From contig CADEGF010000033.1 in assembly GCA_902826815.1 (NCBI GenBank), positions 1 through 64,000 of the forward strand: 64,000 bases of DNA, written 5' to 3'. The notes beneath the pieces were generated by a model, which saw only the letters and a program-made list of their open reading frames with translations, was not told where the DNA came from and did not search any database. The stretch comes from an uncultured Mycobacteriaceae bacterium. GTDB lineage: Bacteria; Actinomycetota; Actinomycetes; Mycobacteriales; Mycobacteriaceae. Shown piece by piece: positions 58,616-62,722 of this stretch. How positions within the stretch are numbered: position 1 is the first letter of the stretch; every line of letters starts with the position of its first letter. The position numbers and the translations under genes were made by a program.

Positions 58616-59020
58616 TCAGCCGTAGGGGTTGGGCACTCGACCGGCGCTGGCCTCCGTCAGGCGCGGCAGCGTGGAGAACGTGACGGCGGGAAGTGTCAGC
58701 TCGCGGCCGTCCTTTAGTTGGGCCCGCGCCCAGGAGCCCTTGTTGAAGGCGAGGCCGTCGATGTCCCCCCAGCTCACTGTCTCGCTGTGGGCAAGGCTGC
58801 GCGCGGTGACGGTGTCGCGGCCCGCGACGGTGCGCAGCCGGGCGATGTAGGTGGACAGCACCGCCGGAATGATCAGCAGCGGCGCAAACCACGGTGATGC
58901 CATCACCAGCGACAGGATGCCCAGCACCAGGAAGCCGACGGCGAAGTGCGCCATCGGCGAGATCCTGATGACGACCGGTTCAGCAGGGCCCGGCTGCGGT
59001 TGCGAAGTCACGCCTGCCAT
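58616..59020 (-). CDS. cfp6: Cfp6-like PH-domain protein
   Basis: A 134-residue protein with two hydrophobic segments (MAHFAVGFLVLGILSLVMAS and PWFAPLLIIPAVLSTYIARL) followed by a bacterial PH-like domain (TVTARSLAHSETVSWGDIDGL, AFNKGSWARAQLKDGRELTL). The M. tuberculosis counterpart is the culture-filtrate antigen Cfp6 (Rv3004); its function is unknown. ATG 59020 is chosen; longer open frames upstream run into the ilv leader. Convergent with doxX, divergent from ilvB. Confidence 0.85.
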   Translation of the reverse strand: MAGVTSQPQPGPAEPVVIRISPMAHFAVGFLVLGILSLVMASPWFAPLLIIPAVLSTYIARLRTVAGRDTVTARSLAHSETVSWGDIDGLAFNKGSWARAQLKDGRELTLPAVTFSTLPRLTEASAGRVPNPYG

Positions 59021-59049
59021 CGTCCCATTGCGTCGCGCCGGTAAGGAAT

Positions 59050-59079
59050 TTGACGGTTGACCAGTGCGGAGACTACGGT
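59050..59079 (+). promoter_or_regulatory. ilv operon promoter
   Basis: TTGACG at 59050-59055 and TACGGT at 59074-59079 are 18 bp apart. Transcription would then begin at about 59086-59088, on or near the GTG of the leader peptide, so that peptide is probably translated from a leaderless RNA. Confidence 0.6.
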
Positions 59080-59087
59080 CATTTGTT

Positions 59088-59159
59088 GTGTCGAACCTTG
59101 GCTTGCTCGTAGTAATTGGGTTGCGCGTTGATACCGCGCTAGCCCCGACTCGGGCATAG
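59088..59159 (+). CDS. ilvBNC leader peptide (23 aa)
   Basis: A 24-codon ORF from GTG 59088 to TAG 59157-59159. Nine of its 23 residues are branched-chain, with the run Leu-Gly-Leu-Leu-Val-Val-Ile-Gly-Leu-Arg-Val at residues 4-14. That is the mark of an attenuation leader whose translation speed senses leucine, valine and isoleucine. The control run (59097-59117) ends exactly where the antiterminator arm begins. It was too short to be found by a simple ORF list. It precedes ilvB by 110 nt. Confidence 0.85.
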   Translation: MSNLGLLVVIGLRVDTALAPTRA

Positions 59160-59214
59160 TCACAAGTATCAACGCGCAACCCTCGTACAGCGGCCTCGCT
59201 GACGGGGGTTTTTT
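59118..59214 (+). promoter_or_regulatory. Transcription attenuator of ilvBNC
   Basis: Two exclusive structures are visible. Antiterminator: GGGTTGCGCGTTGATAC (59118-59134) pairs perfectly over 17 bp with 59166-59182. Terminator: 59178-59192 pairs with 59197-59210 (core CAGCG/CGCTG, CGT/ACG, then CCC/GGG) and ends in six T at 59209-59214. The two share 59178-59182. A ribosome stalled on the early Leu/Val/Ile codons leaves the first arm free for the antiterminator. A ribosome at the stop (59157-59159) covers the second arm and lets the terminator form. Confidence 0.8.
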
Positions 59215-59269
59215 GTTGCCCCAGCAGTGATTTGAGAGTCCACAACAATTCCAGACAAATGAGGACATC

Positions 59270-61155
59270 GTGAGCGCACCAACCACACGACCCCCGGATC
59301 GGTCGGCGAACCCGCCGTACGGGGATTTGGCCGAGGCCAACGCTGCGCAATCCGCGGCGAAGGCGAGCGGTCAAGGCCAGTCAAGCCAGCCCAAGAAGGT
59401 TGCCCCGCAACAACTCACCGGAGCCCAATCGGTCATCCGGTCGTTGGAGGAGCTCGACGTCGAGGTCATCTTCGGCATTCCCGGCGGAGCCGTGTTGCCG
59501 GTCTATGACCCGCTCTTCGACTCGCAGAAGCTCCGTCACGTCCTCGTCCGCCACGAGCAGGGCGCCGGACATGCGGCAAGTGGATACGCTCACGCGACCG
59601 GCAAGGTCGGTGTGTGCATGGCGACGTCGGGCCCCGGCGCCACCAACCTGGTGACGCCGCTGGCCGACGCGCACATGGACTCGATCCCGGTGGTCGCCGT
59701 GACCGGTCAGGTCGGACGCGCCCTGATCGGTACCGACGCCTTCCAGGAAGCCGACATTTCGGGCATCACGATGCCCATCACCAAGCACAACTTCCTGGTG
59801 CGCAACGGCGACGACATTCCGCGGGTGATGGCCGAGGCGTTCCACATCGCGAGGTCGGGCAGGCCCGGTCCGGTGCTGGTCGATATTCCCAAGGACGTGC
59901 TGCAGGGGCAGTGCACGTTCAGCTGGCCGCCGAAATTCGAGCTGCCTGGGTACAGGCCGAACACCAAGCCGCACAGCCGCCAGATCCGGGAAGCCGCCAA
60001 ACTGATCGCGGTGGCGCGCAAACCGGTGCTCTATGTCGGCGGCGGCGTCATCCGCGGCGAAGCGACCGAAGAACTGCGCGATCTCGCCGAGATGACCGGC
60101 ATCCCGGTGGTGACCACCCTGATGGCGCGCGGCGCCTTCCCGGACAGCCATCCGCAGAACATGGGTATGCCGGGTATGCACGGCACGGTGGCCGCGGTGG
60201 CCGCGCTGCAGCGCAGCGATCTGCTGATTGCGCTCGGCACGCGGTTCGATGACCGGGTGACGGGCAAGCTGGACTCGTTCGCGCCCGAGGCCAAGGTCAT
60301 TCACGCCGACATCGACCCGGCCGAGATCGGCAAGAACCGCAACGCCGACGTGCCGATCGTCGGCGACGTAAAGGCCGTCATCGCGGAACTGATCGAGGCG
60401 CTGCGCCGCGACGGCACCTCCGCGATCCAGATGGACAAGTGGTGGGAGTACCTGCGCGGGGTGAAGGCGACATACCCGCTCAGCTATGGACCGCAGAGCG
60501 ACGGAAGTCTGTCTCCCGAGTACGTGATCGAACAGCTCGGCAAGATTGCGGGCCCCGACGCCGTTTACGTCGCAGGCGTTGGGCAGCACCAGATGTGGGC
60601 CGCGCAGTTCATCTCGTATGAGCACCCGAAGACGTGGCTCAACTCCGGCGGACTCGGCACGATGGGCTACGCCGTTCCCGCCGCGATGGGCGCGAAGTTC
60701 GCCCGCCCCGACGCCGAGGTTTGGGCCATCGACGGCGACGGCTGCTTCCAGATGACCAACCAGGAGTTGGCCACCTGCGCGGTCGAGGGCGCCCCGATCA
60801 AGGTCGCGGTCATCAACAACGGCAACTTGGGCATGGTGCGGCAGTGGCAGACACTGTTCTACGGAGAGCGGTACAGCCAGACGGACCTGTCCACGCACAG
60901 CCACCGCATCCCCGACTTCGTCAAGCTCGCAGAGGCGCTCGGCTGCGTCGGACTGCGTTGTGAGCGGGCCGAAGACGTCGTCGACGTGATCAACCAGGCG
61001 CGCGCCATCAACGACCGGCCCGTGGTGATCGACTTCGTCGTCGGCGCCGACGCGCAGGTGTGGCCGATGGTGGCCGCAGGCACGAGCAACGACGAGATTC
61101 AGGCCGCGCGCGGAATCCGTCCGCTGTTCGACGATCCCGAAGAAGGCCACGCCTG

Positions 61156-61156
<1 letters not shown>
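59270..61156 (+). CDS. ilvB: Acetolactate synthase large subunit
   Basis: The ThDP- and FAD-dependent first enzyme of valine/leucine/isoleucine synthesis; 628 residues. A 45-residue polar N-terminal extension precedes [20 protein letters not shown], then [16 protein letters not shown], the ThDP activator Glu in [20 protein letters not shown], the FAD region [20 protein letters not shown], and the ThDP-Mg motif [20 protein letters not shown] to [15 protein letters not shown] 59270 has GAGGA at 59261-59265. Its expression is governed by the leader and attenuator. ilvN overlaps its stop by one base. Confidence 0.97.

Positions 61157-62722
<1,566 letters not shown>

Follow-up and report, generated by a model that had tools for sequence, protein, structure and literature searches.

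Ribosome stalling on control codons decides termination in the four-arm attenuators of the Escherichia coli trp and ilv operons. Regarding ilvB in actinobacteria, the leader of Mycobacterium tuberculosis yields an abundant terminated transcript of about 120 nt, whose U-tract ends at +126 and whose uORF is translated. Inhibition of IlvB1 induces the operon, replacement of Leu-Val-Val-Ile (LVVI) by AAAA abolishes this induction, and a two-state terminator/antiterminator model steered by LVVI stalling has been proposed (Eckartt 2026, PMC13236596). In Corynebacterium glutamicum, the ilvBNC attenuator encodes the leader peptide MTIIRLVVVTARRLP, whose start codon lies 1 nt from +1 and whose loss cuts expression by 80%; the antiterminator begins shortly after the control codons, and the attenuator is described as "fast", with a 3-nt overlap between antiterminator and terminator and an explicit anti-antiterminator (Ryabchenko 2025, PMC11857589). 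An ilvB leader peptide with a terminator had been predicted in Mycobacterium, Corynebacterium and Streptomyces, next to mycobacterial cys leaders without a conserved terminator hairpin (Seliverstov 2005, PMC1262725); unlike the present analysis, the available portion of that paper describes neither an ilvB antiterminator nor a leaderless start. As far as these sources go, the attenuator is thus already known, its prediction for Mycobacterium dating from 2005 and its genetic demonstration in M. tuberculosis from 2026, and a leaderless leader peptide is already known for C. glutamicum. A first, sequence-only reading of the locus studied here had set it apart from the four-arm trp/ilv model; given the two-state LVVI-stalling model published for M. 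tuberculosis and the arrangement of the C. glutamicum leader, this is no new departure.

Here, we analysed a 64,000-nucleotide stretch of DNA (hereafter the window) from an uncultured Mycobacteriaceae bacterium, in which the following features surround the ilvB leader.

59050..59055, forward strand: -35-like hexamer TTGACG; ATTTGAC is invariant or nearly so in 82 aligned leaders
59074..59079, forward strand: -10 box TACGGT (TANNNT); TA is invariant in 82 aligned leaders
59088..59159, forward strand: leader peptide ORF of 23 codons, VSNLGLLVVIGLRVDTALAPTRA followed by a stop codon, with its GTG start at the predicted transcript 5' end
59106..59117, forward strand: control codons CTC GTA GTA ATT (Leu-Val-Val-Ile); the doubled Val codon is GTAGTA or GTAGTG in 89 of 89 genus leaders
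59118..59122, forward strand: lineage-specific outer extension GGGTT, pairing with 59178-59182
59123..59134, forward strand: 5' arm of the core (antiterminator) helix, conserved
59166..59177, forward strand: 3' arm of the core helix
59178..59214, forward strand: intrinsic terminator (hairpin 59178-59210, T59209-59214), without spacer to the 12-bp core helix
59270..61156, forward strand: ilvB, acetolactate synthase large subunit, the regulated gene (NF005860, 1165.7 bits)
61060..61665, forward strand: ORF that contains ilvN (acetolactate synthase small subunit), its NCBIfam match beginning at residue 39
61709..62722, forward strand: ilvC, ketol-acid reductoisomerase

As in the E. coli four-arm type, stalling on control codons would decide termination at this locus. 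Unlike that type, the window has no strong separate 1:2 hairpin, its antiterminator arm lies in the coding sequence, and the antiterminator overlaps the terminator by 0-5 nt instead of taking most of the terminator 5' arm. Mycobacteria also have leaderless polycysteine uORFs, a subject on which Canestrari et al. reportedly published in 2020; like the predicted leaderless uORF of the window, these are short and reportedly sense an amino acid, but they differ in that they are said to act by translation attenuation, and on cysteine genes. The likeness is to the M. tuberculosis ilvB1NC attenuator, with an LVVI uORF and a terminator ahead of the same gene and a similar transcript length, the window's terminator ending 127 nt from the GTG; the uORF stop is UGA in M. 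tuberculosis (in the available text of PMC13236596) and UAG in the window, where it stands 22 nt past the 17-bp helix arm. With C. glutamicum, the locus shares a start codon next to the (here predicted) transcript start and a short antiterminator-terminator overlap, but the C. glutamicum overlap spans 3 nt and comes with an explicit anti-antiterminator in the available description (PMC11857589), whereas the window's 17-bp helix extends 5 bp into its terminator.

The promoter, the GTG at 59088, the ORF, the helix and the terminator named by the sequence-only reading are all present where it had placed them, and its view of the element as a branched-chain amino-acid attenuator holds, with a Leu/Val/Ile codon run and a terminator ahead of ilvB and with ilvN and ilvC behind. 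Indeed, the locus has what characterizes an actinobacterial ilvB attenuator: a short ORF with Leu/Val/Ile codons lies upstream of ilvB, an intrinsic terminator separates the leader peptide from ilvB, and an antiterminator helix with compensatory changes in its 12-bp core stands right after the control codons. The element is therefore very probably an ilvBNC leader-peptide transcription attenuator of the kind shared by mycobacteria and related families of the order, in which stalling on Leu-Val-Val-Ile would lead to read-through into ilvB, an identity supported by the conservation described below and by the published work on M. tuberculosis and C. glutamicum; the same two lines of evidence back the location of the antiterminator arm within the leader coding sequence, also proposed from sequence. 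Codon changes in the ilvB leader of Streptomyces coelicolor that had no effect, cited in the available part of PMC1262725, count against the attenuator reading. That the structure arose by chance, or is an intergenic palindrome without regulation, is contradicted by conservation, covariation and codon evidence and is so improbable that we set it aside.

In the window, the -35 and -10 elements are 18 nt apart and GTG 59088 lies 8 nt downstream of the TACGGT box; a generic sigma-70 scan missed this promoter, and Rfam gave no match in the window at the gathering threshold, neither of which affects the identification. The region 59088-59214 (127 nt) is structured well beyond shuffled sequence: its folding energy is -59.3 kcal/mol, whereas shuffled versions average -41.2 (z -4.8, with none of 200 shuffles as low). 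Every pair of the 17-bp helix (59118-59134 with 59166-59182) is Watson-Crick, and the minimum-energy fold contains the 12-bp core together with the whole terminator, plus a weak early hairpin (59094-59098 with 59118-59122). The stretch 59118-59182 is almost a palindrome, with 81% identity between it and its own reverse complement. The genome carries one full-length copy of the leader, its sole other match (E 0.05) being the same site on the opposite strand. A divergent ORF on the reverse strand upstream of the ilvB promoter (58616-59374) encodes a bacterial PH domain (bPH_6); judged by eye, an ATG at 59020 may be its true start.

The expectation that the leader would be conserved in related genomes was borne out: at the DNA level it is matched in 116 of the 118 genomes sampled from the genus. 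These 116 genomes supplied 89 leaders that are followed by ilvB, counting that of the window; L002, a reverse-strand duplicate of the window, and L056, whose contig lacks ilvB, were excluded. The 85 distinct rows minus L037, L042 and L075 gave an 82-row alignment, from which a covariance model was built with zero spacer between helix and terminator. This model matches 268 of 301 genomes of the family (29 of 31 genera) and 50 of 121 genomes of the order (22 of 49 genera), L282 having been dropped from the order set because its stretch holds no ilvB. In genus g3, with small genomes of 2-3 Mb and presumably Corynebacterium, none of the 17 listed genomes matches at E 0.01 and a further search gave one poor hit (E 0.75), although an ilvBNC attenuator is published for Corynebacterium. 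A pattern scan of relatives, for which 80 of at least 116 stretches were read, placed leaders of Mycolicibacter, Mycobacteroides and Gordonia among the matches listed; among these, the peptides most like the window's belong to L115 (Mycobacterium sp. 1274761.0) and L123 (Mycobacteriaceae bacterium 1482268.1), both with a GTG start and VQNLGLLVVIGLRVDTALA. Other leaders depart from this pattern. In L037 and L042, about 30 nt inserted between the start codon and LVVI give a longer peptide. In L053, L055, L098 and L112, the peptide reads MDNGMLVVA(H/P)(C/R)ALVVA, so that the Ile codon is gone and the antiterminator arm encodes a second Leu-Val-Val; an assignment of these leaders as Mycobacterium abscessus-like was rejected, the named relatives with such peptides (L098 and L112) being Mycolicibacter.

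The genus leaders start with ATG in 86 cases and GTG in 3, and the distance from the TANNNT box to the start codon is 8 nt in 85 of the 89, with two leaders each at 7 nt and at 6 nt, counts that lean upward since, among several in-frame starts, the script favoured one with a TANNNT box. In the 82-leader alignment, the TA of the -10 box and the TG of the start codon are invariant or nearly so, and a start codon 6-8 nt after TANNNT is also found in 28 of 30 leaders from other genera and 15 of 19 from other families. This spacing supports a leaderless start, and the leader peptide probably begins at the transcript 5' end in the window's species, as the sequence-only reading had proposed. Regarding codon choice, GTA is rare in the window, accounting for 41 of 948 Val codons (4.3%) across 26 long ORFs selected for high third-position G+C from 38 non-overlapping ones, yet it occurs in the doubled Val codon of all 89 genus leaders.

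The 17-bp helix is made of two parts that differ in conservation. Within the 12-bp core (59123-59134 with 59166-59177), each position pairs in 64 to 82 of the 82 rows, with changes on both sides; the pair 59131-59169, for instance, occurs as G-C in 46 rows and as A-U in 28. The covariation score of the 17-bp helix is 0.119, against 0.082 (sd 0.004) for shuffled alignments, none of 500 reaching it, and at most 0.055 for a slid helix. The outer five pairs, the only ones common to helix and terminator, form in 59, 75, 17, 31 and 18 of the 82 rows; the two structures overlap by 4-5 nt in 11 of 89 genus leaders and by 0 or 1 nt in 77. These outer pairs are lineage-specific, belonging to the window's lineage and not to the leader in general. 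Covariation in relatives, which the sequence-only reading had proposed as a check, is thus seen in the conserved core. By itself, the terminator displays little covariation beyond invariant pairs, and upstream hairpins vary among species in the 11 leaders folded. The anatomy of the element, its conservation, its covariation and its codon choice are thereby established by the present analysis.

Several readings were compared of how the helix would prevent termination. In the account first given for this locus, formation of the 17-bp helix is controlled by the ribosome and deprives the terminator of AACCC (59178-59182). The mutual exclusivity that this implies is also the published M. tuberculosis model (available text of PMC13236596), rapid switching with a 3-nt overlap is published for C. 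glutamicum (PMC11857589), and in the window the 5-bp overlap is perfect. The two proposed structures are exclusive for 5 of the 17 bp, whereas the 12-bp core and the whole terminator form together, and the two window folds are isoenergetic: -41.2 kcal/mol for the 17-bp helix with a residual upper terminator and -41.1 for the 12-bp core with the complete terminator. Since core and full terminator can coexist, plain thermodynamic exclusion does not explain the switch. As a general rule, exclusion between the 17-bp helix and the terminator fails, given the few genus leaders with a 4-5 nt overlap and the equal energies of the window's folds; strict mutual exclusivity of both folds was likewise ruled out as a rule by the alignment, the overlap counts and the folding energies.

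The position of the ribosome weighs on both sides. When the footprint extends 13 nt beyond the first Val codon, all 11 leaders folded contain both the core helix and the terminator, and a stall at Val1 or Val2 with this footprint leaves the CCC of the terminator pre-paired (P>0.5) in 0 of 88 leaders, L034 being left out of the ribosome-folding, energy and codon-distance analyses. With the leading edge at +8, CCC pre-pairs in 11 of 11 window-lineage leaders for a stall at Val1 or at Leu, and in 56 (Val1) and 52 (Leu) of the 77 other genus leaders, the 17-bp helix of the window forming with P=1.00 in both stalls; at +10, a Val1 stall leaves CCC pre-paired in 0 of 11 window-lineage and 8 of 77 other leaders. 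Because the outcome varies with the assumed leading edge, the 0/88 result at Val1 is not decisive against strand competition. In none of the 11 window-lineage leaders does CCC pair (P<=0.5 throughout) during a stall at Val2, at any edge from +8 to +13, or at Ile, from +8 to +12, which speaks against strand competition. The sequence-only reading had noted that the control codons end where the antiterminator arm begins; the coordinates are right, but this adjacency is an obstacle to strand competition at Val2 and Ile, not a support for it, and at Leu and Val1 its effect depends on the footprint. With a 26-nt footprint, a ribosome on the first Val codon of the window masks exactly the 5-nt overlap, and one on the stop codon leaves the overlap free and 12 of 17 bp unmasked, so that the replete state provides no clean off-switch for the helix in the window's lineage. 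Competition between the strands is accordingly a reading that we hold as possible, short of even confidence.

A geometric regularity suggests another reading. The distance between the end of the core helix and the terminator is -2 to +1 nt in 124 of 138 leaders overall, namely 77 of 89 in the genus, 28 of 30 in other genera and 19 of 19 in other families, while the loop inside it varies from 15 to 57 nt (119 leaders of the genus and other genera). Of the 30 leaders from other genera, 22 have a spacing of 0, 4 of -1, 2 of +1 and one of -3, the script having assigned L245 another helix; L034 was likewise given another helix, and both are counted as exceptions. As the covariance model had been built with zero spacer, 19 genomes without a model match at E 0.01 were checked separately, ilvB being located by protein and the junctions scored by script. 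Of 13 such genomes from other families, 9 have a distance of -1 to +1 nt; the distance is 4 nt in L298 and 7 nt in L294, for which the script may have picked a different helix, and no terminator-like tract is present in the other 2. L289 (genome G139), of genus g23 in the window's family, has control codons CTC-GTG-ATC and a strong 16-bp helix 5 nt from its terminator; among 5 genomes of g3, 4 lack a terminator-like tract and the helix of L305 is spurious. Abutment is thus the common arrangement and not a universal one. We found no description of this abutment across families, nor of the lineage-specific overlap, in the literature searched.

Along the RNA, the first Val codon lies 52-82 nt from the terminator base, and with the core helix formed this distance shrinks to 5-15 nt (n=88), whereas the stop codon always stays at least 18 nt away (n=89; 19 nt in the window). 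The core helix would then loop out some 55 nt and dock the stalled ribosome 5-15 nt from the terminator base, and the ribosome itself, not mainly strand competition, would block completion of the hairpin in RNA polymerase. The fixed junction despite a variable loop, in the genus as in other genera and families, fits such docking, as do the 9 of 13 genomes missed by the model. Without a ribosome, pre-pairing of CCC occurs in all 11 window-lineage leaders, in 42 of the 77 others of the genus, in 14 of 30 from other genera and in 2 of 19 from other families; that it is not pre-paired (P<=0.5) in 17 of 19 other-family leaders even then is also in favour. Moreover, the E. coli terminator tR2 is repressed when a stop codon is close and regains full efficiency beyond about 27-30 nt (PMC4824070), and the effect of start codon loss in C. 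glutamicum (PMC11857589) fits a need for the ribosome. On the other side, docking is deduced from geometry, and E. coli distances may not transfer: in the available data of PMC4824070, two constructs spaced at 18 and 17 nt gave very different values (0.8 versus 0.12), and by this yardstick the window stop codon at 19 nt is borderline. The gaps of 4, 5 and 7 nt scored by script in L298, L289 and L294 also count against docking and led us to lower its probability slightly; and the +8 edge, which lets CCC pre-pair at Leu and Val1 stalls, makes strand competition possible there. We thus put docking forward as a suggestion that is rather unlikely to hold, and are equally doubtful about the broader proposal that abutment is how the ilvB antiterminator acts across mycobacteria and several related families, to which the window's lineage adds a 5-bp strand exchange.

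Families f2, f3, f4, f12 and f16 account for 11 of the leaders from other families. In 9 of these (L276, L278-L281, L283, L284, L286 and L287) the stop codon stands -2 to +1 nt from the core 5' arm and so lies at the base of the arm; L285 and L288 differ. Few codons therefore separate the stall from the stop in these nine.

An organization with three hairpins that is off by default, as in C. glutamicum, has also to be considered: in the untranslated leader, pairing of 59094-59098 with 59118-59122 would hide GGGTT and leave the core helix and the terminator to form. The weak early hairpin of the window's naked minimum-energy fold agrees with this, but the naked fold of L003 lacks it and the 11 leaders folded do not share their upstream hairpins between species, which makes this organization improbable.

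The following course of events explains these data best. Transcription would start at or beside GTG 59088 and a ribosome would load on the 5'-terminal start codon. With Leu-, Val- and Ile-tRNA plentiful, it would reach the stop codon and hinder the core helix, and the terminator at 59178-59214 would end transcription; with charged tRNA short, it would stall on CTC-GTA-GTA-ATT, its leading edge then lying close to the core-helix base, the helix (59123-59134 with 59166-59177) would form and RNA polymerase would read into ilvB. By analogy with the studied species, we infer that stalling on Leu-Val-Val-Ile leads to read-through in the window's species as well, and the 5-bp strand exchange can contribute in its lineage, as the 3-nt overlap may do in C. 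glutamicum.

Finally, the step that opens branched-chain amino-acid synthesis is under the control of the ilvB leader, in an order to which major pathogens as well as amino-acid producers belong; those who studied the leader in M. tuberculosis consider its molecular details still underexplored (PMC13236596). A start codon close to the promoter, a rare Val codon, a core helix and a near-zero spacer to the terminator are the recurrent parts of the element, and the 17-bp overlap is the lineage-specific one. This division makes it possible to test whether strand competition is needed or whether a stalled ribosome docked by the helix silences the terminator. If docking is true, an amino-acid-starved ribosome loaded on a leaderless transcript, rather than a competing RNA strand, would be what blocks termination.
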